From assembly GCF_023028105.1 (NCBI RefSeq), contig NZ_CP095491.1, positions 1,922,001 to 1,986,000 of the forward strand: DNA of 64,000 bases. The letters are read 5' to 3'. The DNA comes from Halosolutus gelatinilyticus. Lineage in GTDB: Archaea; Halobacteriota; Halobacteria; Halobacteriales; Natrialbaceae. Shown here piece after piece: positions 37,985 to 56,487 of this stretch (positions are counted from its first letter, which is position 1; every line of letters starts with the position of its first letter). The notes beneath the pieces were generated by a model. That model saw nothing but the letters and a program-made list of their open reading frames with translations, searched no databases and had not been told where the DNA came from. A program made the translations under genes and the position numbers.

Positions 37985-40900
37985 CTACTCTTCGAATCCA
38001 GGCCCGACGGTGAATGATTCTGGTGCGCAGGGGAGTTGGTTGTGCTGACACCATTGACAGTGTTCGCCCGCAGTGTACTGACTGAACGAGAACTCCGCAA
38101 TACGGTTCATCGACTTCGTCACGCCGTCCCTGATCGCTTCGAGGTCGTCATCGCTGAATGTTCGGGATTCGACCTTTGGCCCGATGTCACCGACATAGGC
38201 GTATCCCGCGCGTGCAACAGGCTCATCGTAAAGGTCACGGCACGCTAAGAGGTAGATTGGGAGTTGCTTGTCGTCCTGTAGGTCGCGGTGGCGTTCGGTC
38301 GCCTTGTAGTCGATGACGACCAGTTCGTCGTCAGACGTCCGGTAGACGGCGTCAATGTAGCCGACGAGTTCGTGCCCATCGATTTCGAGTTCGAACTCTC
38401 GCTCTGCGTCGATGATCTCGTAACTGTGGAGATTCAACTCGAAGTACCGGTCAATGCACTGTTTTGCCGCCGGGAGCGCGTCGTCAGCGCGGCGCTGACT
38501 GGCGAGTCGCTCGCAGATTTCGTACCACTCCTCACTGCGTTCCACATTTTGATTCGCAGCTTGCTCCGCGGTGTCGTGGAACAATAACCCGATTGTACGT
38601 TGCGACACGCCATCCCCGGCGTCGCTTGTGGTCTCCTGGTAATCGGGGAACGCATTGATCACGTACTCCAAGTAGTGACTCCGCGGGCATTCTTCGTAGG
38701 CCGCCAGCGACGTGTAGCTGTGAGAGAGCGATGGCGAAGGTGTTGACGGGCCAGTCAGCGACGCAACCTGGAGTATCTCCCGCTCGGCTCTTGGTGAGAG
38801 ATTCCCGTCGAGAGTGGCCGTTGCAAGGTTTAGTACGCGGTCGCGCGCAACCCTAACCGCGAGCTCTTCCCCATCGTGCCTGACGGTACCACCGACATTT
38901 CCGACATTATCGCTGGCCAGCGAGTTAGTCCAGTCAACTGCCTCATCCGAGAGACACTCTTGAACATCCGTCCAGAGCGGGAGATGTCCTCGCTCTGGCT
39001 GCCATGGGATTCGAGATGGGAGAATTTCATCAACAATCTCTGAAACGGAGTCCTCGTCCTCAGCATCGTCGTCTTCCTCGCTGCCACCCTGCAGGACGAG
39101 GATGTCTTCGGCACGCGTGATCCCGACGTGGAACACACGGCGGGTCTCACGGGCATCACGCTCGATGAAATCCTCGGCGAACGCTGCTTCCGCGTCATCC
39201 GAGAGGCTGGTTTCGAGCGCGTCGTACGTACGTGAACTCGGGGCCCACTCGTCGGCCGTGACTTGCGGGATGAGGACGACCGGGAAGTCTAGGCCCTTGC
39301 TCTTGTGGATAGTCATCACGTTGACCGCGTCGTCGGCGACGTCCGGCTGACTCGTTGGGGAAGAGCCACTCTCGTCGAACAGGGAGTCGTAGTGTTCAAG
39401 CGAGTCGATGAACTCCGGGGTGAGCGGCGGTTGGACGGCGCTGTCCCCGTACTGTTCGATGACGTCCTCCAGCTGGGCGAGGTCTCGGCGCTCCTGTTCG
39501 CTGAGATACCACTCGATGTTTGTGAGTTCTGTGAGTTCGCGGTACAGATGACTGAGTGACGCAGAGTCGCGGAGTTCGAGTAGTTCCGTGGCGTGCTCGC
39601 GGGCTTCTGCGACGCGGTTAGGCTCCTCAAACTCGTCGAGCGGTGTCTCCCGGAGCGTATCCACGAGCGGGTCGTCGCCTGTATTAAGCGTGCGGAGGTC
39701 TGCGTCGCACAGACGGTACCGCATCAGGAGGACGCGATTCCAGCTCACCTCATCTTCCGGCCGTGCAAGCGCCTTCAGGTAGGCAGTGACGGTTCCGACG
39801 CCGACTGATTCCGTGGCCAAATCCCCAGCAACCTGGTACGGAATGCCAGCGTCTTCGAATTCCTCGATGACAGGTGTCGCGTGGGCGTTCTTCCGAACGA
39901 GTAACGCGATGTCGCCTGGATCGTACGCCTCATCGAGATTTTCTGCTGCACCGCTCAGTAAATTCTGTACGACGGTACGAAGTTGGGGTGCATCGTCCGA
40001 GTCGTCGTCTTCGTCCGGGAGTTCGATGGTAGCGACGGTGTCCCCGTCGTACGCGGGTTCGTCGACGCGAGTGAGTGTCTTGTGCCGTTCACGGTGGTCG
40101 AGTTTCTGAATTGCCTCGTTCGCCAGGTTGAGAATCGGCTGTCGGGAGCGGAAGTTCTCCTCCAGCGGTTCGTCCGTGAGCGCCGCGAAGGCTCGGTCGA
40201 GTTCGTCGGTAATGTTGGCGACGTTCGCGCCGCGCCATTCGTAGATCGCCTGATCGTCGTCCCCGACGACGAACAGATTATCGTCGGTGACGAGTGACGT
40301 GACGAGGTCGAACTGGAGGCGATCCGTGTCTTGGAACTCGTCGCAGAACACGTAGTCCCACCGCTCGGCGATTTCCTCGCCAACCGGAGAGTCCATCAGC
40401 GCAGCTGTCTCGACTACCAGGCCGTCGAAGTCGATGAGATTGCGCTCGTCCAGTTCTCGCTCGTACGCAGCGTACCCTGCGGTGAGATCTCGGGCAGTAA
40501 GACAGTCGGAAACGAACGAGTCGAGATGATCCGTGAGTTCGAGGTCCAGATCGTCCGGGATCCCTTTCGGGGCACCGCTTGCATACCCTCTGAACAGGTA
40601 CTTCGGGAGTTTGTACGCGTTGTCTGGCAGGTCACGCTCGCCATCTTCGTGGGCCTCGAACGCGGTTTCAAGCGCATCACACAGATCGACGAGCCGGCCG
40701 AGGAAGTCCCGGGCGCTAGCTTCGATCCCGATCGTTCCCAATGCGTCGCGTTCCGCGGTGAGTTCATCGCGCACATCGGGAAGTGAGTTCAGCACGCTTG
40801 ACACGGAACGGCCGCCGAGATGGTCGTTGGCAATCGTTTCGATGCGCTCCGGGAGGTCGGCGAGATCGTAGACGCGGTCGGCGGGCCCGAGGAACGCGTC

Positions 40901-41440
40901 GATGTCGTCTGGCGAGATGCCGCTACGCTTCATCGACCCGATGAAGTTGAGCAGCTTCGACGCGGCTCCGAACGCGTATCCGTCGCTGCCGTACACGTTG
41001 GGTTTGACTGACCGGTACTCAATGTCGTCGAGAACATCCAGCACAATAGCGTACTTCTCGGCGTCCGTGGCAACCTCGAAGTCCGGATCGATCCCGGCTT
41101 CATAGGCGTAGTCGGTGAGGATCTCGTTGCAGATCGAGTGGTACGTGTACGCGTCGATGTCGTACCCCGCTGTCCCGAGTTTTGCGTTGAGTTTCTCGCG
41201 CATCGAGTCCGCCGCGTTGTTCGTGAACGTCAACGCGAGAATCCGGTCCGGCGAGACGTCTTCCTCGTCGATGAGGTGCTCGATCTTCCGCACCATCGTG
41301 AACGTCTTGCCCGTGCCTGCGCCTGCGAGGACACGCATCGGGTACGCGTCTGAGTCGATAATTGACTCCTGTTGGGGCTCCGGTGAGACATCTGCTTCTG
41401 GCACCGGAAACCAGGACGGGTACTCGGCCTCGTCGCTCAT
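37985..41440 (-). CDS. UvrD/PcrA-like (AddA-type) helicase with C-terminal Cas4-like nuclease
   Basis: 1151 residues. The SF1A helicase has Q motif QQESII, Walker A GAGTGKT (40-46), motif Ia ALTFTNNAA, motif II VFCDEFQDTD, motif III VVGDDDQAIYEWRGA, motif V VMTIHKSKGLDFPVV and motif VI RRVFHVGITRAED. The last ~280 residues form a PD-(D/E)XK nuclease: SYTSLAAYEECP, GLLFHDTAEQA, GYIDAVYRTSDD then VVIDYKATE, QLPIYLLA, and CQWCQHNQLPC, which with the earlier Cys can hold a 4Fe-4S cluster as in AddB/Cas4. It is the last gene of the minus-strand operon, overlapping the nuclease gene by 4 nt. It should unwind and degrade DNA ends as part of an AddAB-like complex. Confidence 0.88.
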   Translation of the reverse strand: MSDEAEYPSWFPVPEADVSPEPQQESIIDSDAYPMRVLAGAGTGKTFTMVRKIEHLIDEEDVSPDRILALTFTNNAADSMREKLNAKLGTAGYDIDAYTYHSICNEILTDYAYEAGIDPDFEVATDAEKYAIVLDVLDDIEYRSVKPNVYGSDGYAFGAASKLLNFIGSMKRSGISPDDIDAFLGPADRVYDLADLPERIETIANDHLGGRSVSSVLNSLPDVRDELTAERDALGTIGIEASARDFLGRLVDLCDALETAFEAHEDGERDLPDNAYKLPKYLFRGYASGAPKGIPDDLDLELTDHLDSFVSDCLTARDLTAGYAAYERELDERNLIDFDGLVVETAALMDSPVGEEIAERWDYVFCDEFQDTDRLQFDLVTSLVTDDNLFVVGDDDQAIYEWRGANVANITDELDRAFAALTDEPLEENFRSRQPILNLANEAIQKLDHRERHKTLTRVDEPAYDGDTVATIELPDEDDDSDDAPQLRTVVQNLLSGAAENLDEAYDPGDIALLVRKNAHATPVIEEFEDAGIPYQVAGDLATESVGVGTVTAYLKALARPEDEVSWNRVLLMRYRLCDADLRTLNTGDDPLVDTLRETPLDEFEEPNRVAEAREHATELLELRDSASLSHLYRELTELTNIEWYLSEQERRDLAQLEDVIEQYGDSAVQPPLTPEFIDSLEHYDSLFDESGSSPTSQPDVADDAVNVMTIHKSKGLDFPVVLIPQVTADEWAPSSRTYDALETSLSDDAEAAFAEDFIERDARETRRVFHVGITRAEDILVLQGGSEEDDDAEDEDSVSEIVDEILPSRIPWQPERGHLPLWTDVQECLSDEAVDWTNSLASDNVGNVGGTVRHDGEELAVRVARDRVLNLATATLDGNLSPRAEREILQVASLTGPSTPSPSLSHSYTSLAAYEECPRSHYLEYVINAFPDYQETTSDAGDGVSQRTIGLLFHDTAEQAANQNVERSEEWYEICERLASQRRADDALPAAKQCIDRYFELNLHSYEIIDAEREFELEIDGHELVGYIDAVYRTSDDELVVIDYKATERHRDLQDDKQLPIYLLACRDLYDEPVARAGYAYVGDIGPKVESRTFSDDDLEAIRDGVTKSMNRIAEFSFSQYTAGEHCQWCQHNQLPCAPESFTVGPGFEE

Positions 41441-42339
41441 CGTTGCACCTCCGTGGACAGTCGGTCAGCACACATTTCTCGATAGTCGCAGTCCGGGCAC
41501 GCCTCCTCAGTGATAAGGTCGAGCAAGTCCGGTTCGTACGTCTCACCCGTGATGCCATCGTGGGCGTCCCGGATGAGCGCCCAGATCGTGTCGTAGTGGT
41601 CCTCGTATATTTCCGTGGTTTCCCGAGGCCAGCCACGCGCGGACACGTCGTATCCGCTTGGGGTGCTCTCGAACGACGTGCTGTTGAGGATCCCGTAGAA
41701 ACTGAACCGGACCTCCATCCCGTCCTCGTAGAACGGTTCGTTCTTCACGCCTTCGACGTATGTCGCTGTCTGGAACGCGTTCCGGACCCGCTTCGGTTCG
41801 TGGGCCTCCCCGTCGAGATGGTCGCCAAGGTACTCGGCCGTCCCCGACGAAAGAACCCCGTTCGTGTTCCGCTTGTAGTCGAAAATGTGGAGCCCGTCGT
41901 CAGTCCGGACGACGTTGTCAGCTTTCCCGTGGAGTTCTCGACCATCCACTTCGCACTCCACCCAACATTCCGTATCGACGGAGTAGCGAGCGTGCTCGAT
42001 CCCATCACCGCCTTCCGGATCGAAGAACGACGTGATGGCAGCGCGGTTCTCAGCTCGCTGGTACTCTTGATGCGCAGCAGATTCGTAGTCGTCCGGAGTA
42101 CTGTGTTCGTCCCACTTCGCATCGAAGACCTGCATCGCCCGGTTGTGTATTGTCTCCGGGCCGTCATCGCGGTCAGTCGCATTACACACCTCTTCGATAG
42201 TCTCGTGGTAGATCGTTCCTTGGTTGAGATACAGTTCTGTACGGTCCGGCGCGTTCACGTCCTGAGCGTAGCGGTAGTCGTACAGGCGCGGACACGTCGC
42301 GTAGTTCGCTAACCGCGACGGGGAGAGCGACGAACTCAT
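41437..42339 (-). CDS. Stand-alone Cas4/RecB-like Fe-S PD-(D/E)XK nuclease
   Basis: 300 residues. LSPSRLANYATCPRLYDYRY supplies the first cluster Cys, GTIYHETIEE the catalytic His, LHGKADNVVRTDDGLHIFDYKR the Asp...DYK active site, and QTATYVEG motif IV; the C-terminal CPDCDYREMC gives the other cluster cysteines. This is the arrangement of Cas4 and of the AddB nuclease domain. Its start and stop overlap both neighbours by 4 nt, so it is produced with the AddB-like and AddA-like subunits. It probably represents the nuclease part of AddB split off as its own gene (inference). Confidence 0.87.
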   Translation of the reverse strand: MSSSLSPSRLANYATCPRLYDYRYAQDVNAPDRTELYLNQGTIYHETIEEVCNATDRDDGPETIHNRAMQVFDAKWDEHSTPDDYESAAHQEYQRAENRAAITSFFDPEGGDGIEHARYSVDTECWVECEVDGRELHGKADNVVRTDDGLHIFDYKRNTNGVLSSGTAEYLGDHLDGEAHEPKRVRNAFQTATYVEGVKNEPFYEDGMEVRFSFYGILNSTSFESTPSGYDVSARGWPRETTEIYEDHYDTIWALIRDAHDGITGETYEPDLLDLITEEACPDCDYREMCADRLSTEVQR

Positions 42340-44384
42340 CGCCGCACCTCCCCGTTAGCAAATTCGACACGTGCACGCAACGCTTCCCGGAGCTCGTCCC
42401 CTCGGGAGCCGCTCTGTTCGAGTAGGTCCTGAATCTCACCGAGTTCCGCTTCGACCTCGTCGAGCGACACCGTCACGTCCTGACTGTTCGCGCGGCGCAC
42501 TTCCGCGAGTGCGTCGTCAACCCGCGACAGCAGGTACTTCTCCGCCGCTTGCTCACTCGTAATGTGTGGCTCATCGGCCTCGGTCACCCACGGAAGATCC
42601 TCATACGCCGCTGTGAGGAACCGCGACGCCTGCGCACGCTCTTCGAGCGCCGTGTCTTCGTACTCGTAGAGACAACAGTATAGTCGCTCCGCCGCCGCAC
42701 TCGCACCGACAGCCAACCGTCGCCGCGCGTGCTCCGTGTGGTACTGCGCGAACGGTCGTCCTGACGCTGTCGACATCGTCGGGAATGTCGCATCCACATC
42801 CGATCTATCGAGTTCAGTGACGCCAGGGTAGTCCGGCATTGACGCAACTCGCTCGGTTGGGAACAACCGTGTCAAGAACGGGTCACCTGGATACTCACTG
42901 TCGACGAGATTCACGAGAAACACCGCGCGGAAGGACTCGTTCTTAATCGCTTGCAAGTGATCAACGCGGACGCCGCCGTTGAGATCCGTCGCACTCGTCT
43001 GGTTTTGTTGCGGTGCGTACTCGTGGGCGCGTTCGAGCATCTCCTTGAAAGACTCCCACGTGGCATCCACGAATTCCGTATCTTCGAGGAACTCGGCCAT
43101 GCGGAACGCCCGCCGGACGTTCCCGAACTGCGCCCGTGCATCCAACGGGGCCGCCCGCTCCGCAATCCGCTCTTTTAGCCCGGAGTCTGTCGCCCACCAG
43201 CGGATCGCGTCTTCGAGGCTGTCCGTCTCGTTGACACGGTCTAAGCGCTCTGTATCGAGTTCTGGGCCGTGGTCTGGTACATCATCTTCGTCAACGGCGA
43301 GATACCGAACGGCCGCGAGGAGTTCCCGAATCGCGGGATCGTCACCGAACCCGGTGACGGTTGTCGATTCCGTTGGAATCCCGGTGCCTTCGAGCGCTTC
43401 GATAATGTCCGTAACAGCACTGCCGCTTTGCTTCGTGGCGACAGCGATGTCGTCGTACCTCCAGCCCGACTGCGCGACGATCTCTTCGATTTCGTTGGCA
43501 ATCTCGGCGAGTTGTTCGTCACTGGAGTCTGTAGCGAGAACGGAGACCGACCCGGCTCCCGAATCTTCCGGGACTGTTTCTTCGGCGAAATAGGATGCCG
43601 TCGCAGCAGGTCGCGTCGACGGTGTCCCCGATACCCCACGCCGGGACTCGCTGAACGAGACGTAGTCCGTGACTGGCCCTGCCTCAACCCACGTACGTCG
43701 TACACTCGCGTTCTCTTCGGTGATACAAACGAGCTCACAGTCCCCTGCGAGCGCGTCGAGATACGCGCGATCGAGCGGGAAGAACTCCTCAAACTCGACC
43801 GCGAGCACCGTATCGAAATCGACGACCTCGTCATGGGCATCCCCGGTGAGGACATCGAGCGCTTCCGAGATGAGTTGTCCGCGTTCCATGTGGCCGTGCT
43901 CGGCCAGCCACTCGTGGAACGCGTCAAGCGCAGCCGTGATATCACGGAGTTCTGGGGTTTCCCCGGGCGTGACCGTCTGCCAAGAGATTGTATCCATCAA
44001 GGCGTCGACGTCCTCGATGAACGACGGCTGTTCAGACGCCCGTCGGAGGTACTCCGTTTCCCACTCGTAGTCTGCGAGGAATCGGTGGAGGAGTTCTCGC
44101 CGTAGCGCGTCGGAGAGAATGACGCGGTCATCGGTCTGATTGAGGACATCGGTCGCGTGCACGACGAGCGACGTTACGTACGGCGTCGCCGCGCCCGGCA
44201 GTTCCGCACCTAACGTCTCACGGAACGTGTCCGTACTTGTTGGCGACCCTGTTAGAACGAGAATATCATCGGGGTCTTCGGAAGCAAGGATATCACGGTA
44301 CTGCTCGGCTATAGCTGACTGAACGTTCTCGGTTCCAAATGGAACAGTTAGTAGTGTCCCGTCGAAGGACGAACGCCGAGTCAC
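42336..44384 (-). CDS. Inactive UvrD-like helicase subunit (AddB/RecC-like)
   Basis: 682 residues. The N-terminus (LLTVPFGTENVQSAIAEQY) sits where AddB/helicases have Walker A but lacks GKT. Helicase-fold remnants remain: VDFDTVLAVEFEEFFPLDRAYLDALAG (motif II region), DDIAVATKQ, and VRVDHLQAIKNESFRAVFLVNLVDSEYPGDP (motif V-like). This is the pattern of AddB/RecC structural subunits that recognise DNA ends or sequence signals. There is no nuclease domain; the gene downstream encodes one. First gene of a three-gene overlapping set, separated by 198 nt from the PLD-ATPase gene. Identification by domain pattern, moderately sure. Confidence 0.75.
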   Translation of the reverse strand: MTRRSSFDGTLLTVPFGTENVQSAIAEQYRDILASEDPDDILVLTGSPTSTDTFRETLGAELPGAATPYVTSLVVHATDVLNQTDDRVILSDALRRELLHRFLADYEWETEYLRRASEQPSFIEDVDALMDTISWQTVTPGETPELRDITAALDAFHEWLAEHGHMERGQLISEALDVLTGDAHDEVVDFDTVLAVEFEEFFPLDRAYLDALAGDCELVCITEENASVRRTWVEAGPVTDYVSFSESRRGVSGTPSTRPAATASYFAEETVPEDSGAGSVSVLATDSSDEQLAEIANEIEEIVAQSGWRYDDIAVATKQSGSAVTDIIEALEGTGIPTESTTVTGFGDDPAIRELLAAVRYLAVDEDDVPDHGPELDTERLDRVNETDSLEDAIRWWATDSGLKERIAERAAPLDARAQFGNVRRAFRMAEFLEDTEFVDATWESFKEMLERAHEYAPQQNQTSATDLNGGVRVDHLQAIKNESFRAVFLVNLVDSEYPGDPFLTRLFPTERVASMPDYPGVTELDRSDVDATFPTMSTASGRPFAQYHTEHARRRLAVGASAAAERLYCCLYEYEDTALEERAQASRFLTAAYEDLPWVTEADEPHITSEQAAEKYLLSRVDDALAEVRRANSQDVTVSLDEVEAELGEIQDLLEQSGSRGDELREALRARVEFANGEVRR

Positions 44385-44427
44385 ACTGACCTCCGCCAGA
44401 AATGTGACCTAATCGCTTGGGAAAAGA

Positions 44428-44538
44428 TTGTAATGTCCTCGTATGGATCCATTACAAACTGGGACATACCCTGCTACCAAAAAACTAGTACAATCAGGTG
44501 ACAGTCAACATATAGCGCCAACGTGCCCCCATATATGT
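44428..44538. promoter_or_regulatory. Two inverted repeats in the AddB-like promoter region
   Basis: TTGTAATG (44428-44435) and CATTACAA (44450-44457) form a perfect 8-bp inverted repeat 44-73 nt upstream of the AddB-like start. ACATATA (44508-44514) and TATATGT (44532-44538) form another, 45-75 nt beyond the stop of the PLD-ATPase gene. The first could be an operator of the addAB-like set, the second a termination-associated hairpin. Confidence 0.35.
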
Positions 44539-44582
44539 CAGAAACGAATCAGCGTAGCCTCTGGCGAAGAGTAGGATGTTGT

Positions 44583-46700
44583 TTAAGTACGGATTACGCT
44601 AGTGAGTCGAGACAGAACACCATTGGAACTAGCAGACATTGAATCGGACCGTGCCTTTTTGATAACGTCGGGCTCATCTATCCAGTTCTTGAACCTGTTT
44701 GCGCTTTCAAACTGGACTGCCGGCCCGTAAATGCCCGCGCGGATGTGTGCTGGCGTAGCTTTCTGGAATTCCCAGCATTGCTGCTGGTCCAGATTCGCTG
44801 AGAAATCAGCGACGATCCGTCCGTCGTCTTTGAAATCGAGTTCACACAGCCCGTCGGACAGCGCACTGATCCATTTCCGACGGCCCGGATCGTGCTCCTG
44901 CTCGGCGGGTGTCTCCAGGGGCACGTACTCCGGCGGTTCCTTCTCGGCATACGCGTACAGCTCCGCAAACACGTCCCGAGCATCCGCGAGCCGGTCCGAC
45001 TGGTCTGGGAGCGAGATTTCCCGCTGCAAGAACAAATGAGCGAACCATGGGAACAGGTTACAGCTGTCCGCCCGGCCCGCGATCTGCGCGGCCGCTTCCC
45101 GTTCGTCTTTCTCCAGTTCGGAGAAGTTGACGTTGAAATCCAGCGTCTTCATGCGAGTGCGGAGTTCGGATTTTGGCTTCGTCGAGTCGTTCGAGGAAAA
45201 GATGAACGTCGGCATCTGGATGGAACCGTCCCACTTCCCCTCCCAGTACGACTTGATGATGTCCCGGTCGATTTTCGACTTCGCCACGTCGTCAACGATA
45301 TACGGGAAAACAGTGTCCGACGCACGAGCGCGCTCGATGTTGTTTTTGACGAAGTCGTCGCCGGTCGTGACCTCCTGTACGTACCCGTTCGAGATGAGCC
45401 GCGCCCCGAACCGCAGGAACATGCCTTTCCCGCTGTCGTTGTCGCCATGAAGGAACAGGAACGGCAGGTCCTTGTCCAGCTCTGCAGATTCGTATTCGGC
45501 GTAGTGATGTGCGCAGTAGTTAGCGAACGGAGCCCAGCAGAAGTAAATAACTCCCTCGTAGAAGTGCGCCCGCGTTTCCTTCGTCGTTCGCGTCTCTCCG
45601 AACTCGCCGACAGTTTCGACGTACTGCTCGATCAGGGCGAGTGCGTCAGCGACTTCCTGCGGATCGTCCGGGAGGGGAGCCGATAATTCGAGGACGGAGT
45701 CGTCAACCCGCAGCCCCACCGTGTTCTCCTCCCTGTCGACGTTGAGGTCGGGGTATCCGGTGAAGGTCTCTTTGTACCGTGCGATACCGGCTGGCGTCGC
45801 TACGATTTCACCGTCGTTGATCCGGATGTTATTGGCGGACAGCGTGTCGTCTAAATTCGAGATAGCGTCTTCGAGGCCCTGCGGGGAGAGACGGACACGC
45901 TTGTCCGGACTGATCTCGGTCGGATCCGTGTCCGTATCTTCGGCGGCGAACACCGCCTTCTCTGCTTCTTCGGCGTCGGTGACGACGTTGTACGTGTTGA
46001 CTTGGTCGTCGTCAACTGCTTCGTCGAGCCGTGCGTTTAGCTCGGCGACGGGGTCGTCACTGAACTCGTCGCCACCCAGCCAGATGTCGTAGATCTTCGC
46101 CTCTTCTTCTGCCGTTTCGGCGTCCTCGATTTCCTCGGTGAGGTTCTCCATGAACGGCGTCGCGTAGTCCTTGTGGAACGCGTAGAGCCGTTCGAACCAC
46201 TCGTCGACGGGTGTGTCCCCGTCGGTACGCCAGGCCATGTTGACGTTGGTTTGTTTGCTCCCTTGCCAGGCCTGCTTGGAGAGGTTTGCCGACCCACAGA
46301 TGAGTGTGCGAGATCCGTCCTGGTTCTCGACGATGTAGAGCTTCGTGTGGAGGAGGACACGGGCGGAATCGACGGTGTGGATGAGGAGATCACCGTCTCG
46401 TCGCAGTGATTCCAGTTGCGCGGCGATTTTCTTCGCGTTGTTCGTGTTCTTCAGCGACCGCCGATAGTCGTCGTGCTGGTTGTCCCCAACGATAACCTCC
46501 AAGGAGTCCACTGAGAGGTCCCGGTTCTGAAACATCTTGTAGATAAATGCGGGGGACTGACTGTACGTGACGCAGTAGACATGCTGGGCGTCACCGAAGT
46601 AGTTCAGAAAGCTGTCCCATGATTTGTCGGCAGCCATCTCCAGGTCGGCGGTGCTGCCGTCATCGAACTCGACTGTTGCTTCGAATGCTGTCTTGGTCAT
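44583..46700 (-). CDS. PLD-family nuclease fused to an SF3-like ATPase
   Basis: 705 residues. The N-terminal domain carries one HKD half-motif, LLHTKLYIVENQDGSR then LICGSANLS (His118, Lys120, Ser/Asn at 137-139), as in Nuc/BfiI-type phosphodiesterases that dimerise to form one active site. The C-terminal half has a P-loop FLFLHGDNDSGKG (419-426, unusual Gly after Lys), an acidic Walker B-like YIVDDV (468-473), sensor-like FIFSSND and ELRTRMK, resembling superfamily 3/D5-type viral and plasmid helicases. It lies 63 nt after the Argonaute gene on the same strand. A single-strand or guide-directed DNA nuclease coupled to a ring ATPase is plausible; activity is inferred. Confidence 0.8.
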   Translation of the reverse strand: MTKTAFEATVEFDDGSTADLEMAADKSWDSFLNYFGDAQHVYCVTYSQSPAFIYKMFQNRDLSVDSLEVIVGDNQHDDYRRSLKNTNNAKKIAAQLESLRRDGDLLIHTVDSARVLLHTKLYIVENQDGSRTLICGSANLSKQAWQGSKQTNVNMAWRTDGDTPVDEWFERLYAFHKDYATPFMENLTEEIEDAETAEEEAKIYDIWLGGDEFSDDPVAELNARLDEAVDDDQVNTYNVVTDAEEAEKAVFAAEDTDTDPTEISPDKRVRLSPQGLEDAISNLDDTLSANNIRINDGEIVATPAGIARYKETFTGYPDLNVDREENTVGLRVDDSVLELSAPLPDDPQEVADALALIEQYVETVGEFGETRTTKETRAHFYEGVIYFCWAPFANYCAHHYAEYESAELDKDLPFLFLHGDNDSGKGMFLRFGARLISNGYVQEVTTGDDFVKNNIERARASDTVFPYIVDDVAKSKIDRDIIKSYWEGKWDGSIQMPTFIFSSNDSTKPKSELRTRMKTLDFNVNFSELEKDEREAAAQIAGRADSCNLFPWFAHLFLQREISLPDQSDRLADARDVFAELYAYAEKEPPEYVPLETPAEQEHDPGRRKWISALSDGLCELDFKDDGRIVADFSANLDQQQCWEFQKATPAHIRAGIYGPAVQFESANRFKNWIDEPDVIKKARSDSMSASSNGVLSRLTSVIRT

Positions 46701-49690: not shown

Positions 49691-51370
49691 ATGCTCGGGA
49701 CAGGGAGCGCAGAAGAGTTCATCGACGACGCCGAACACCACAACCAGTGGTGGAGTGACGGCAGTTCCCCAGAACTATCGCAGGCCACAGACCTCACCCC
49801 TCGCTCTGATTTCCACCGCGTCCTCAAGAGAACCAACACCCACTACACTGACAACGTCGAGAGTCTCGTCTACGCAATTCACGGCCAAACGGGGATCGGC
49901 AAAACCACGCTTCTTCACCAACTCGTCGGAGCCCTCCTCGACACAACTGAATTCCCACAACAAAACAAAGACCTCGAACTCACCTCCGCATTCTCCCCCA
50001 GACAAGTCCTCTACATCCCCTTGGAAGACTCTCTGTATCAGCTGGAACGCCCAGGCAACGACATCAAACGCCTCAACCAAGTCATCGACTACTTCCAGAC
50101 CCACGTCGCACCCCGCCAAGGACAGAAATTCATCCTCCTTGACGACGTCCAAGCCCTCGATCTCGACGAGAACCGCAAAGCAGAGCTACTCGACCTTCTC
50201 GACGACAATACGTACGTATTCCTAACCGGCAACGTCCGCGCACAGGTCTCCCTCTCAAACGTCGAAACCGCCGACACCGTCGATGAATTCGAAGGCCCAT
50301 GGCCCATCCTCCCGATGAAATTCATCGACACCGTCCAAACCGGCGAAGGTCTAGGTGTCGAATTCAATGAGGCATTCCGAACCCAACTCGAACAATTCCA
50401 ATCACCCGACTTAGACGGCCCATCGCCGATCAAAACAATTCGAACCGGGCTTTCCGGAACGAATTCGGAGACCAGTCTCGACACAGCTGTTGAAACACTC
50501 TCGGAACTCTGCTTCGATATCTTCGATGCAGACGACCGAAACAACCTCCACGATGCCGCGCGAGCATACCTCCGAACAGGCGGGACCCTCCACCAGACAG
50601 ACGTCCCCTCGATCCGGAACGACCTCTCAAAATCTCACTTCCTCCTCTTCCTCTACAAAGAACTCGCCAAGCACCGATCCATCCAACAACCCGAAAACCT
50701 CCACCGACTCAGCGCCATCGCTGCCACCAACGCCGGTGAAGAACTCCAGTACACTGAACTCAGCGACCAGATCGGCGTCGATAGGCGAACCGTCGACAAC
50801 TACCTCGACGTGCTCGACGAAGGCATCGCCGTCACCGAATCCCACGACTACTCCCTCCGACGCTACCGTCGTACCCGCTTGTACCTCCGCAACCCACGCC
50901 ACCTCGTCCTCCTCTCCCAACGCCAGGAACACCACGGCTTCGAGGCGTACGAACGACAAGACACGCTCAACCACGAATTCGAACACAAACTCGCCCGCAC
51001 CGTCGCCTTCGACCATGCCAAACGCCTCGCCTTCACCGTCGGAGCATACGACGTCGAATACACCGAAACCGAATCCGGCCTCGTCGACTACATCCTCCAA
51101 CGCAACGGACACGTCCTCCCCTTCATCCTCTCCTACCACCCATACACTGGCAACGCCGAAACAATCACCGAAGAATTCACCCCTGAATCCGGCCAGCACA
51201 CCAAATCCGACAGTGAAGAGCTACAGGAGTTAGACTACCAGGCACCGTACCGGTTCGTCATTACCGACAGTCTACCAAAGAGCGTCGTTGAGAGCGAGTC
51301 ACTCGTTATGCAGGGGGACGAAGCAAGAATTTGTTATCTTCCATTCTGGCTGTTTCTCTTGATTTGCTAA
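49691..51370 (+). CDS. AAA ATPase with winged helix and C-terminal nuclease-like domain (DUF4143-related)
   Basis: 559 residues. Walker A is GQTGIGKTTLL and Walker B KFILLDDVQAL (about residues 59 and 151). After the ATPase comes a winged helix (LSDQIGVDRRTVDNYLDVLDEGIAV), then LYLRNPRHLVLL...FEHKLARTVAFDHA...TESGLVDYIL, the order found in archaeal/bacterial DUF4143 ATPases where the end is a PD-(D/E)XK-like fold. The usual E-x-K is not clear, so the nuclease part may be inactive. Divergent from Argonaute and followed by the GHKL-DUF3883 gene. Possibly a sensor or loader; function unknown. Confidence 0.72.
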   Translation: MLGTGSAEEFIDDAEHHNQWWSDGSSPELSQATDLTPRSDFHRVLKRTNTHYTDNVESLVYAIHGQTGIGKTTLLHQLVGALLDTTEFPQQNKDLELTSAFSPRQVLYIPLEDSLYQLERPGNDIKRLNQVIDYFQTHVAPRQGQKFILLDDVQALDLDENRKAELLDLLDDNTYVFLTGNVRAQVSLSNVETADTVDEFEGPWPILPMKFIDTVQTGEGLGVEFNEAFRTQLEQFQSPDLDGPSPIKTIRTGLSGTNSETSLDTAVETLSELCFDIFDADDRNNLHDAARAYLRTGGTLHQTDVPSIRNDLSKSHFLLFLYKELAKHRSIQQPENLHRLSAIAATNAGEELQYTELSDQIGVDRRTVDNYLDVLDEGIAVTESHDYSLRRYRRTRLYLRNPRHLVLLSQRQEHHGFEAYERQDTLNHEFEHKLARTVAFDHAKRLAFTVGAYDVEYTETESGLVDYILQRNGHVLPFILSYHPYTGNAETITEEFTPESGQHTKSDSEELQELDYQAPYRFVITDSLPKSVVESESLVMQGDEARICYLPFWLFLLIC

Positions 51371-51441
51371 GCAGATTCCAAGGTTGCCATAATTCGATGA
51401 ATTCTGGTCCTCTGCCACTCTCACAACACCACATCCCTGAG

Positions 51442-51449
51442 TTATATAT
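51442..51449 (+). promoter_or_regulatory. TATA box of the GHKL-DUF3883 gene
   Basis: TTATATAT lies 27 nt (centre) before the ATG at 51472, the correct archaeal spacing for a leaderless transcript, and favours 51472 (or 51466) over earlier in-frame starts. Confidence 0.6.
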
Positions 51450-51471
51450 CTCTGACTCGACACCAATGTGT

Positions 51472-54400
51472 ATGAACGGTTCCGGGCCGGCCTCTATCTC
51501 GGATATTCAACGCCGGCACGTCGACACCTACGAGAGTAATCCGGATCGAATTGAGGCTGACGCGGGTACTGAACGTCAGGACCGCGCTGACTATGAGGGT
51601 CGGTTCGTCTTTGAGTTGCTACAGAACGCCGTCGACGAGATGGACGACACCGACGAACCACGGGTACGGTTTGAACTCACGGAGGACAGGCTCCTCGTTG
51701 CGAACAACGGTACGGCGTTCTCCTTCAAGGACCTTTACGCACTGACGCTCACGACCCGGACGACGAAAGCTGGCGAGACGACTATCGGCCACAAGGGCCG
51801 CGGGTTCACGTCCGTTCTCGGCGTCACGGACAACCCGAGTGTATACTCAGAGAACGTCCAGGCACAGTTCAACCGAGAGACGACAGCTGCTCTACTGAAT
51901 GACAACGATGATATTTCGGCTGAACGGGACGACGCACTCGTCGCTGAGCAAGTTCCCTTACTTTGCCTTCCGCACGAGACAACGACCCCGTCCCGCGTCC
52001 ACGAACTTCTGAACGACGGATTTACAACCGTATTCGAACTCCCACTTCGAGACCCTGCACGGCACCATGAATCGATCCGTGCGAAGCTTGACGGACTTGA
52101 CGCGAACACGGTCGCGCTGCTCCCACAACTTCAGAAGATCGAGATCAGTTCTTCGGAACAGGAGTGGGAATGGGGAATTGCTCGACACGATATGACTGCC
52201 TGTGACGCGACCCTCATCGAACTCTCCACAGACACAATGGACGGCCCAGGGGGTACACGCACAGAGTGGTTCTGCCTGTTCGAACGGACTGATCTTGACC
52301 GAGAACAGATATCGAACCACGCGGATCTGACCCAACCAGAGGTTGATGCGATGGGCGAATTGAGCGTTGGCATTGCGTTCACTGCGACACCCGTAGACTC
52401 CCCGCCTTCCCTTCGCCCAAAGGATTGGAAACTCACGCCCGTGTACGGTGACACTGACGACCAACCACCGTACCTCCACGTCTTCCTCCCAACGAAAGAA
52501 CGCAGTCCAATCCCTGCGCTCGTGACAGGGACCTTCCAGTCAGACACGTCCCGCCGAAACCTCACACTCAATTACGATGACTCGCGCGGGTACGACGGCC
52601 AGTTCAACGCCCTCCTGTTTACGGCAGTCGGCGAGCTCCTCGCAGATCGTGTCATTTCGTTTGTTGACCAGTCCGCGACATCGGCGGGGGACCTCCTTAG
52701 CACGCTGGACCCGTCGCTAGGGCAACGCCGCGACTGGTCGTTCGCCCAGGGAACAGTCGAGGACTGTCTCTTCGACGCGATCAAGACTGGACTCACGTCC
52801 GTCAAGTTCCTACCGAGCGCGCTCTCTGACCGGTGTGTCGCCATCGATGACAGCACAGTACCTCCAACGTCCGCACAACTCCCGGACTTAGGCGCAGACT
52901 TCGTGTCACTCCTCCAGTCGGGCGACAGTCAAGTTGACGACCAGCCGCTAGTCCCGACAACAGAACTATCGACCCACCAGCACGCCCAGACGCTAGTTGC
53001 CTATGGTGCATCACAGTACGACGCGCCGTCGATACCTGGAGCCCTCGCTGCTGTTTCTGTGAATCCTCCTCTCCGCGTCGTCGACGAGCGTGAATTCGGC
53101 CGAACTCCACCGGATGACGACGAGCCGTGCCGCCTCACAGTCGATCCGGTCCTTGAGTATCTCGTTCGTCTGCGGAAGACGCTGGAGAGCGACGAGGACC
53201 GTTCAGCCCTTGACGAAGCGTGCCGCCGACACGACGTGTTCCCCGTCGAGATCGTAACCGGCCCAGGGGAAACGAAGTACGCGATACGCGGTTCAAACGA
53301 GACCGGCACGATCTTCATGCCACCCGAGGGCGACATTACAGCGGACACCCTCCCGACGCTCGAATTTCTTCCGCGTGAACTGTACCACGGCACAAACGCC
53401 GACCGCTCGGCACCGCTTCGGGACGACGTACTCCCGGCGAACTTCGACGCCGACGTTCAGGCGATCTGGGACATCAACGACTACCTGTTCTCACAAGTGT
53501 TCGACACCGCGATCAGCCCACATCTCCCTGGACCGAACTCACCGAACGCGGACCCGTCTGTCCTCGCGTCCAGCTCAGTACTACGAACGATCCGTGAGAT
53601 GACGGACGTCCAGTCACCTGAAAACGACCGCAGTCCCGACTCACCGCTCCTCTACCAGTCCGCCAAGAAGCCATTCTCGGCGCTCGCACAACTGCCCGTC
53701 CCAACACAGCCAACAGAGGGCGACACAGTCGAATGGCATCCCGCACACCGCGTGTACTTCAGCTCCGCTTGGCAAACCACGCTTGACCGCCCAGAAGACG
53801 CTCACATCGAACCGTTCCTCAACGCTGTCGCCGCCAAAACTGATTCCGAACGGTTCGATCCGAAGTTCCTGGCTCCACCTACGTGGTTCACTACTGACGA
53901 TGACGAACATTGCTCAGAGACGCTCGAAGCGTGGACAGCATTCTTCTCGTGGCTCAGTGTGTTCGAACACCTCCGTCCGCTCCCGCTGTTCGCACCAGGT
54001 GAACAGCAGACGTATCGACAGACGCAAGGCCTTAGCCGACCGTCGAACTCAACGGTTACAGCGTCCGAGGATCTCCGAACGGACGGTACTAACACCGTCG
54101 ATCATCGGTACACCGGACTCACCGACGCAGAGTGGCAAGCATACCGCGACCACCTCGCGGGCGCGGTAACCCCAGAGATCCCTGACCCAGAGGAACAGTA
54201 CCTGTTCCAAGTGAATTCCCTAGAGTACGCGTCGGAAATCCTCTCGGCCGCAAACCAATCGGAAGCTGTGGGAAGCCGTCTCCTCACGCACCTCACGCGG
54301 TGGTGGGATAATGGTCTCTCCGCGCGGCGACACGCGACTGTCGCGCAATTCACCAACGAACGGTGGCGCGGCAGTAACGTCAGCTACGTGTTCAACGACG

Positions 54401-56487
54401 ACGAGCAAGAGACACTTGGCTGGAACCTGTGGGTGTGGCAGCTCCGGCAAGCACGTTGGGTTCCGACAGCGTTCGATGCCGCGCGCCCCACAGCCTCATG
54501 GAGTCTACCACGCAACGACCGTGACCGCTTCAGCCTCAACGTGAACGGAGTGCGGCCCTTGCTGCCGTTCGTAGACGTGGACTTTCCAACCAGAGAAAGC
54601 GAAACGACCGTCAGCTTCGAAGAACTCACCGACACACTCGGTATCGGAGTGCGGCTAGAGCAAGGCACGTTCTCGCCACAGGACGCCGAACGCGTGGTCA
54701 GTCGTATGGGGGAGTTACTCGCGTGGACCGATGACGAACTCGCCCAGTACAGCAGTGCTGTCGAACTACTCTACACACGCGTCGCTGAACTCCTCCCGGG
54801 ACTAACGCGCGGCAACCAGATCACTGGCGAGTGGGATCCCGAACAAAGCGGGCTTGCGGACGCACTCGTCCTCTGCCGGGTTAACGATGAGTACGCCCTC
54901 AAACGCGCGGGCGATACCTACTTCATCCGGTCACGGAGCAGTCGTGACCGCTACGGAAATCTCGGTGTTCCACTCCTTGCAATGTTCAAACCGGAAGCCG
55001 TCAGTCTCGGCGAGTACTGCGGTGCGACCGACCTGCGAACCGCTGTCGAGAAACAGCCCGGATACGGCGATGATCGTTCTCTTCCGATATCAATCTCTGG
55101 CTTCGAAATCGACACCGCGTGGCTTCAAACAGTCCTCGCCGCGCTTGTCCTCCGACTCCGAACGAATCGACCGTCATCCGCGCTCGTCGACCAAGACACA
55201 ACCCGAACCCAGGCATTCTTCGAGAACATCGTGTTCGTCACCGACCTCGATCTCAACATCACACTCACCGACGGCAGCTGGAACCGCAATCTCGACCCGA
55301 AACCGCAACCGTACCATATTGAACGCGACGGCGACATGATTGACGCGATCCTCATCGACGTGACGCTCAACCGAGAGGCTTTCGTCGACGCACTCACAGG
55401 GGCGTATACCGACCGGCTCGATGTCCCACAATACTACGAGGCTGTCAACAACCTCGTGGACTACGCGTTCGGGAACGCAACGCCAGCTACCGCGTTACAC
55501 GAGCGACTCCGAACCGTCGGGAGCGAAGTCCCGAACGGCCAGATTGAGGCGACTCGGGTCACGCTCTTCGAAAGCACCACCGAGGACTCACCAACCGGAG
55601 ACAGCGATGCCGATCACCCACCAACGCCTGAACCAGATCGTGACGGGGTGTTCGATCCCAACCGAAACACGCACTCCGCGGCAAGCAATGGCGGATCGCA
55701 ATCATCTACTGGCACGACTGGAACCAGCGCACACTCTTCGCGCATCCCCAGTATCGACGCAGTCACTCGGATCGGCGACCGGAAAATCGCCGAATCGCTC
55801 CGGAACGCCGACGTATCCACAGAGCCAATCAACAACGGCGGTCGCCAGCCCTCGGGGAACGATCGTTCCGCGTCCAATAGGCAAAACGGTGGAGGTGGTG
55901 GGGCGTCCCAAGAGTATCGTGACGAGATCGACGCGTTCGGCATGGATGTTACGCTAGACGCCGAGCGGATCCGGCTTGGAGAGGCCAATGAACCAAATTC
56001 GGAAGCGAAGGTCTTCGATGTCCATACGCCAGAAGAGTACGGGAAGCAACGTGAAAACTCGGATCTCCTCGAACGCGCTATCCATCGGTTCGCAGAGCGA
56101 CGCGGTCTTTCTGCCGCAGAAAATCCGCTTGACCGCGACTGGCCCGGATTCGACGTCTTGACGATTCGAACCGATGACGACGGCCCGGTGATTGACCGCT
56201 GTATCGAACTCAAAACGTCCGGCCAGAACACGAGGAAGCCGTCCCTCTCGTGGAACGAATGGAAAGCCGCAGGCGGGCCGCTCAGCGAGCACTACTACCT
56301 CTACGTAGCCCGGAACATTCGACTCGGCAACAGCGGCGATGCAGAACTCCTCGAAATACCACAACCGTTCGACCGGTTACGGAACCGGCAACGCAAAACA
56401 CGCGATCGGAACGTCCAGGTAGATCTCCGCAGCTTCGACTTTGACGACGATCCAATCATCGAACGCCCCATCGAGTGGGAGGAATAA
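51472..56487 (+). CDS. Giant GHKL-ATPase (sacsin/HSP90-like N-terminus) with C-terminal DUF3883 nuclease-like domain
   Basis: 1671 residues. The N-terminal ATPase of the GHKL type has N-box FVFELLQNAVDE, G1 LLVANNGTAFSF (NNG for DNG) and G2 IGHKGRGFTSVLGVT, most like sacsin/HSP90-type domains. A ~1100-residue middle has no domain I recognise. After a disordered Ser/Gly/Asn-rich linker (~1380-1480) comes a DUF3883 fold: LERAIHRFAERRGLS, WPGFDVLTIR, IDRCIELKTSG, SWNEWKAAG and EHYYLYVARNI. That is a PD-(D/E)XK-like arrangement with the ExK in IELK. Similar ATPase-DUF3883 proteins are common in defence islands (general knowledge). It could be a stand-alone effector or partner of the preceding AAA ATPase. 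Confidence 0.82.
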   Translation: MNGSGPASISDIQRRHVDTYESNPDRIEADAGTERQDRADYEGRFVFELLQNAVDEMDDTDEPRVRFELTEDRLLVANNGTAFSFKDLYALTLTTRTTKAGETTIGHKGRGFTSVLGVTDNPSVYSENVQAQFNRETTAALLNDNDDISAERDDALVAEQVPLLCLPHETTTPSRVHELLNDGFTTVFELPLRDPARHHESIRAKLDGLDANTVALLPQLQKIEISSSEQEWEWGIARHDMTACDATLIELSTDTMDGPGGTRTEWFCLFERTDLDREQISNHADLTQPEVDAMGELSVGIAFTATPVDSPPSLRPKDWKLTPVYGDTDDQPPYLHVFLPTKERSPIPALVTGTFQSDTSRRNLTLNYDDSRGYDGQFNALLFTAVGELLADRVISFVDQSATSAGDLLSTLDPSLGQRRDWSFAQGTVEDCLFDAIKTGLTSVKFLPSALSDRCVAIDDSTVPPTSAQLPDLGADFVSLLQSGDSQVDDQPLVPTTELSTHQHAQTLVAYGASQYDAPSIPGALAAVSVNPPLRVVDEREFGRTPPDDDEPCRLTVDPVLEYLVRLRKTLESDEDRSALDEACRRHDVFPVEIVTGPGETKYAIRGSNETGTIFMPPEGDITADTLPTLEFLPRELYHGTNADRSAPLRDDVLPANFDADVQAIWDINDYLFSQVFDTAISPHLPGPNSPNADPSVLASSSVLRTIREMTDVQSPENDRSPDSPLLYQSAKKPFSALAQLPVPTQPTEGDTVEWHPAHRVYFSSAWQTTLDRPEDAHIEPFLNAVAAKTDSERFDPKFLAPPTWFTTDDDEHCSETLEAWTAFFSWLSVFEHLRPLPLFAPGEQQTYRQTQGLSRPSNSTVTASEDLRTDGTNTVDHRYTGLTDAEWQAYRDHLAGAVTPEIPDPEEQYLFQVNSLEYASEILSAANQSEAVGSRLLTHLTRWWDNGLSARRHATVAQFTNERWRGSNVSYVFNDDEQETLGWNLWVWQLRQARWVPTAFDAARPTASWSLPRNDRDRFSLNVNGVRPLLPFVDVDFPTRESETTVSFEELTDTLGIGVRLEQGTFSPQDAERVVSRMGELLAWTDDELAQYSSAVELLYTRVAELLPGLTRGNQITGEWDPEQSGLADALVLCRVNDEYALKRAGDTYFIRSRSSRDRYGNLGVPLLAMFKPEAVSLGEYCGATDLRTAVEKQPGYGDDRSLPISISGFEIDTAWLQTVLAALVLRLRTNRPSSALVDQDTTRTQAFFENIVFVTDLDLNITLTDGSWNRNLDPKPQPYHIERDGDMIDAILIDVTLNREAFVDALTGAYTDRLDVPQYYEAVNNLVDYAFGNATPATALHERLRTVGSEVPNGQIEATRVTLFESTTEDSPTGDSDADHPPTPEPDRDGVFDPNRNTHSAASNGGSQSSTGTTGTSAHSSRIPSIDAVTRIGDRKIAESLRNADVSTEPINNGGRQPSGNDRSASNRQNGGGGGASQEYRDEIDAFGMDVTLDAERIRLGEANEPNSEAKVFDVHTPEEYGKQRENSDLLERAIHRFAERRGLSAAENPLDRDWPGFDVLTIRTDDDGPVIDRCIELKTSGQNTRKPSLSWNEWKAAGGPLSEHYYLYVARNIRLGNSGDAELLEIPQPFDRLRNRQRKTRDRNVQVDLRSFDFDDDPIIERPIEWEE

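Follow-up and report, generated by a model that had tools for sequence, protein, structure and literature searches.

A haloarchaeal Argonaute-associated PLD nuclease of the AgaP family with a putative D5/SF3-like ATPase half, encoded in a conserved operon

What does a protein do that joins a PLD nuclease half-site to a P-loop ATPase and is encoded beside an Argonaute gene: does it run along DNA as a processive nuclease, or does the ATPase serve another purpose? The question is raised by a locus of Halosolutus gelatinilyticus, contained in a stretch of 64,000 nucleotides (NZ_CP095491.1, positions 1,922,001 to 1,986,000; hereafter, the window). A preliminary description had identified there a single HKD half-site fused to an SF3-like ATPase, had called the combination uncommon and its P-loop unusual, and had proposed a processive DNA-loading nuclease, perhaps derived from a replication helicase. 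The protein is real and its anatomy was read correctly: the open reading frame is exact, the PLDc_2 domain and the motifs are borne out, and His118 (in HTK, 118-120) and Lys425 (in GDNDSGKG, 419-426) are rightly numbered. It belongs, however, to a known family; its ATPase half appears to have escaped notice, and it sits in an operon that is conserved (Table 1).

Table 1. Features of the AgaP locus, with positions in the window and residue numbers of the corresponding protein.
Feature	Position	Strand	Remarks
AddA-like UvrD helicase with C-terminal PD-(D/E)XK nuclease	37985..41440	-	UvrD 1.3e-60, PDDEXK_1 2.7e-27
PD-(D/E)XK (Cas4-like) nuclease	41437..42339	-	PDDEXK_1 4.5e-21
AddB-like protein, specialised paralogue	42336..44384	-	
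AgaP-family protein, 705 aa: PLD nuclease domain and D5/SF3-like AAA+ ATPase	44583..46700	-	
AgaP C-terminal region, residues 611-685, a mix of helix and strand, perhaps a winged helix	44646..44870	-	Secondary structure only
AAA+ ATPase domain, residues 346-610	44871..45665	-	AlphaFold2 models, fold matches, HHalign to D5 set
Candidate arginine finger RTRMK, residues 514-518	45147..45161	-	R516 and K518 67/67; aligns to D5 arginine pair
Motif C / sensor 1 FSSND, residues 501-505	45186..45200	-	N504 67/67
Walker B end IVDD, residues 468-471	45288..45299	-	D471 67/67; D470 clade I only, 33/33
Walker A GDNDSGKG, residues 419-426	45423..45446	-	G419, G424, K425 invariant
AgaP middle region, residues 191-345	45666..46130	-	Partly disordered at 240-265 (model)
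PLD domain, residues 1-190	46131..46700	-	PLDc_2; fold matches Nuc, NgoAVII, SauUSI, PLD3
GSxN motif GSANLS, residues 136-141 (G136, S137, N139)	46278..46295	-	S137 and N139 invariant; G136 66/67
HxK motif H118-T-K120	46341..46349	-	Invariant in 67 homologues
Long pAgo, 889 aa	46764..49433	-	Tetrad D671, E707, D741, D866 intact
Divergent DUF4143-type AAA ATPase, conserved next to such loci	49691..51370	+	18/67 loci

Haloarchaeal Argonaute-associated PLD proteins have been described as AgaP, and the pair as the APAP system (PMC11442185). NpAgaP alone is toxic, its toxicity depends on the PLD residues H105 and K107 and is suppressed by Argonaute; plasmid restriction needs NpAgaP, extrachromosomal DNA is preferred, and the protein functions in a heterologous host supplied only with ago and agaP (PMC11442185). 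Among the homologues collected here, L056_7 (717 aa, NC_019963.1) matches every published residue number (H105, K107, E112, G119, S120, D122, G157, S158, N160), which identifies it as NpAgaP of Natrinema pellirubrum. A tblastn comparison of the window protein with L056_7 gave 31% identity over 99% of the length (E 2e-87), and by this alignment it is a full-length homologue of NpAgaP, a member of a known family and no orphan. The two, 31-33% identical, share the PLD active-site residues, the Argonaute neighbour and the ATPase half, whose Walker A reads GESNGGKGTF in NpAgaP. As expected of an AgaP, the gene with the N-terminal PLD domain adjoins that of a long-A pAgo with an intact DEDX tetrad, which lies upstream on the same strand at a distance of 63 bp. 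The catalytic motif of AgaP was presented as HxK(x)49GSxN (PMC11442185); the window protein lacks this split of about 50 residues, since HxK and GSxN are separated by 15 residues in it and in most homologues, and by 47-74 (49 in NpAgaP) only in the NpAgaP subclade. The split thus appears from the alignment to be an insertion of one subclade and no family trait, so that the window protein is named an AgaP homologue without it.

The family is found in 27 of the 125 genomes of the host's family, an Argonaute of this kind in 16, and the two are adjacent in nine. A quick tree with several long branches separates clade I (33 members), with 19 of the 20 Argonaute-linked loci, from clade II (34 members), which is mostly Argonaute-free and comprises 13 of the 14 loci with NurA/HerA only. 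The combination is therefore uncommon only in part, the pairing of Argonaute and PLD protein being the published APAP (PMC11442185), a system to which the preliminary description did not refer. The main text of that paper makes no mention of an ATPase in its account of AgaP, and this half of the family appears, as far as that text goes, to have been previously unremarked.

In the PLD half, PLDc_2 scores above the Pfam gathering threshold at residues 67-171 (E 8.4e-7) and is matched by 48/48 aligned homologues. An AlphaFold2 model of the whole protein, computed from the 48-sequence alignment (mean pLDDT 82.8), retrieved PLD nucleases at residues 1-190 and MCM/D5 AAA+ chains at 306-609; the first half matched Nuc (1byr), NgoAVII (4rct) and SauUSI (7clg), in agreement with the PLD fold that had been anticipated, and the HxK and GSxN residues lie within it, HxK being present once. 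The Asp of HxK(x)4D is absent, being replaced by Glu (E125) in most of clade I and by Val in clade II; since the equivalent E112A mutant of NpAgaP remained toxic (PMC11442185), this is not decisive for PLD membership. Residues of both halves (H118, K120, S137, N139, G419, G424, K425, D471, N504, R516 and K518) are invariant across 67 homologues, and the median dN/dS is 0.03 in either half (nine orthologues, median dS 0.33-0.40); the motif pattern is thus not a product of chance, as judged from these comparisons, and both halves are evidently under strong purifying selection.

For the ATPase half, none of the Pfam, NCBIfam and PHROG models gave a match; with AgaP, a PDB sequence search returned a weak NgoAVII hit alone (E 0.025) and a PHROGs search nothing useful. 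Modelled separately, this half reached a pLDDT of 89.4 and a pTM of 0.90, and its top Foldseek matches, at a modest E of ~0.006, were vaccinia D5, the NrS-1 C-terminal region and the SaPI5 primase-helicase; among viral models, phage primase, SF3 and D5 proteins dominated the matches of the window AgaP. VIA-align favoured SCCmec Cch (Z 12.8, rmsd 4.4, 251 residues aligned), followed by MCM (Z ~10), papillomavirus E1 and D5 (both Z 8.6) and BrxL (Z 8.4), so that D5 ranks first by Foldseek, whereas Cch and MCM have Z scores equal to or above that of D5. HHalign against 18 haloarchaeal DUF5906/D5-type proteins gave 66% probability over 108 columns, the alignment staying in register between Walker A and the arginine finger; the controls gave 46% for Rad50, over 16 columns only, 35% for HerA, 4% for MCM, 1% for DUF4143 and less than 1% for AddA and SF2. 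Models and profiles therefore support, with moderate confidence, a D5/SF3-like AAA+ ATPase, as had been proposed, and the D5-type similarity in profile and fold makes the suggested derivation from a replication helicase plausible. Membership of the MCM proteins was considered and set aside, the HHalign match being limited to Walker A, yet, given the VIA-align values of MCM and BrxL, the ATPase half may be MCM-like in its ancestry instead. A viral origin of the whole AgaP is unsupported: a search of viral contigs and phage records retrieved no relatives, and, within a phylum-wide sample, the ATPase half was found solely inside the host's order.

Comparison with D5-type SF3 primase-helicases (vaccinia D5, SaPI5, phage primases) indicates what has been kept and what has been lost. 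The AAA+ fold is shared, as is the succession of motifs: Walker A, Walker B, the sensor Asn, then the arginine finger. The invariant Walker A contains a GKG that is not as unusual as first thought, since it is also present in 4 of the 18 haloarchaeal D5-type helicases. The acidic pair of Walker B is present in the window protein and throughout clade I; in clade II the first Asp is lost in 34/34 members and the second retained. N504 and R516 align with their D5 counterparts. The SF3 motif-B′ hairpin, instead, is about 11 residues shorter and devoid of its conserved Lys in all 67 homologues; Walker B and the sensor Asn are 31-35 residues apart, compared to 43-45 in the D5 set, and in 50/67 homologues the loop expected to carry the hairpin Lys contains no basic residue. 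AgaP also differs by the absence of a primase domain and by the PLD fusion. Owing to the hairpin, the ATPase is described here as SF3/D5-derived and is not filed as an SF3 helicase; a processive motor or canonical SF3 translocase is doubtful on the same ground, which tells against the processive DNA-loading nuclease first imagined. Finally, the residue following the Walker A Lys is Gly or Asp, never Ser/Thr, and ATP hydrolysis is accordingly uncertain from the sequence.

The gene does not stand alone. The order Argonaute, AgaP, AddB-like, Cas4-like and AddA-like is kept in nine loci of other organisms and genera, with AgaP 93-96% identical, and the divergent DUF4143 ATPase accompanies these sister loci. 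In one of the nine (L086) an overlapping ORF hides the Cas4-like frame; a further locus, L094, keeps this arrangement, but its AgaP frame is shortened. A second AddB copy in the host genome shares 37% identity with the AddB-like protein, and some AddB-like homologue is found in 109/125 genomes of the host's family. The AddB, Cas4-like and AddA genes are additional to the published APAP (PMC11442185). About 198 bp separate AgaP and the AddB-like gene in the window (44385-44582), against about 5 bp in the sister operons, and the AgaP C-terminus differs there too; the segment was considered as a repeated mobile element, but it is single-copy in the genome. Residues 6-87 of the Argonaute give a weak replication-factor-A-like match. 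A sacsin/HSP90-like ATPase of 1718 aa (51331-56487), whose C-terminus weakly matches NO VEIN and which is matched by PADLOC TmtA models, also adjoins several sister operons.

The domain make-up, the family assignment, the conserved motifs, the lost hairpin and the conserved operon are established here; on them a mechanism may be built, to which we assign an even chance: AgaP would act as effector nuclease in an APAP-type haloarchaeal defence locus built around a long-A Argonaute, equipped with a helicase-derived, ATP-dependent module for DNA engagement, while its neighbours provide the helicase power. The PLD half, a single half-site, would pair with that of a second copy to cut DNA. The ATPase half would represent a D5-type SF3 replication helicase after loss of the pre-sensor-1 hairpin for DNA translocation; it may engage DNA or form a ring in an ATP-dependent manner, for instance where extrachromosomal DNA is melted or being replicated, and this engagement or assembly could bring the PLD half-sites together. 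Argonaute would gate the nuclease; without it AgaP is toxic (PMC11442185). The AddA, AddB and Cas4-like proteins would supply unwinding and resection, and could also supply guides to Argonaute. We infer the ATPase role, the oligomer, the resection and the guide supply. An operon-encoded AddAB-like partner of Argonaute is plausible, since in E. coli RecBCD processes the DNA once pAgo has cut it (PMC10164581); NpAgaP does not require a dedicated AddAB module, as ago and agaP suffice in the heterologous host (PMC11442185). Published work on AgaP leaves to be explained how plasmid and chromosome are discriminated and how Argonaute restrains the nuclease: the apparently unnoticed ATPase half, with its plausible origin in a replication helicase, would offer a testable handle on both, and the operon's own AddAB-like machine a way to probe whether some Argonautes carry a dedicated partner for resection or guide supply.

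Among the alternatives, the one that fares best, although we consider it rather improbable, regards the ATPase half as a catalytically weak sensor of the invader's replication intermediates that tethers the PLD nuclease to them. Such a role as binders has been put forward for D5-type SF3 domains that are inactive and occur in other defence systems as fusions to HerA/FtsK (PMC10853773), and it would agree with the unusual Gly or Asp that follows the Walker A Lys, the loss in clade II of the first Walker B Asp, the missing motif-B′ hairpin and the preference for extrachromosomal DNA published for APAP. Use of ATP is nevertheless argued by the conservation of K425, N504 and R516 in all homologues and of D470-D471 in clade I, at least for the Argonaute-linked clade.

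A nuclease-helicase acting processively, in which the SF3 ring translocates and the PLD half cuts en route, as in SauUSI, is unlikely. SauUSI, a PLD nuclease with an SF2 motor, is indeed the top whole-chain Foldseek match, and the ATPase motifs A, B and C are conserved in clade I; the shortened hairpin without Lys in every homologue argues against translocation, and many loci encode separate helicases beside the AgaP gene. SauUSI and NgoAVII, ATP-dependent PLD restriction endonucleases, resemble AgaP in coupling PLD to an ATPase and provide its nearest whole-chain and PLD folds; their ATPases are SF2 helicase motors, whereas that of AgaP is AAA+/SF3-like. In NgoAVII the SF2 motor is a separate protein. 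Haloarchaeal PLD-helicase fusions are also known: PbeA of the antiviral DndCDEA-PbeABCD system is one, but its helicase half is of SF2 type and its context is phosphorothioation (PMC6459918).

Most AgaP family members lack an adjacent Argonaute, and gating by Argonaute thus cannot be the whole story. Other neighbourhoods contain Mre11-Rad50-NurA-HerA, or AddAB with SF2 helicases and an RNase H-like protein; an AgaP homologue lies within 20 kb in 9 of 13 genomes with a NurA cluster, Mre11 and Rad50 directly follow Argonaute-AgaP in L098, Pif1 and RecQ flank AgaP in L112, and AddAB adjoins it in the absence of Argonaute in L101 and L107. That AgaP belongs primarily to a DNA-end-resection complex (AddAB or Mre11-Rad50-NurA-HerA), with a secondary link to Argonaute, is what these loci would favour, but it is very improbable, considering that in 29/67 loci no scored partner lies within ~10 kb, that the studied AgaP acts with Argonaute alone added to the host (PMC11442185), and that many loci are general defence islands in which neighbourhood may be coincidental. 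Going beyond the effector nuclease proposed for the window, we tentatively advance, as a possibility that falls well short of an even chance, that AgaPs form a distinct class of ATP-gated PLD nucleases, in which a D5-type SF3 motor was turned into a switch sensing replicating extrachromosomal DNA, and which would be shared by Argonaute-dependent and Argonaute-independent haloarchaeal modules, each with its own resection machine.

Some loci differ in composition. In L077, L078 and L079 a different Argonaute shares its operon with an RNase H-like protein and an MrfA-like SF2 helicase; Mre11-Rad50-NurA-HerA lies downstream of this operon, and an AgaP homologue belongs to the island as well. The AddB-Cas4-like-AddA cassette can move on its own, since L150 (genome G122) carries it but no AgaP, close to a transposase-like gene and a PIWI fragment. 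Near-identical AgaP homologues without Argonaute occur in a common gene order in several genera (L100, L103, L105, L106 and L109), and that of L105 lies beside a phage-type integrase; the shared order across genera, together with this integrase, suggests that loci of this type are a mobile element.
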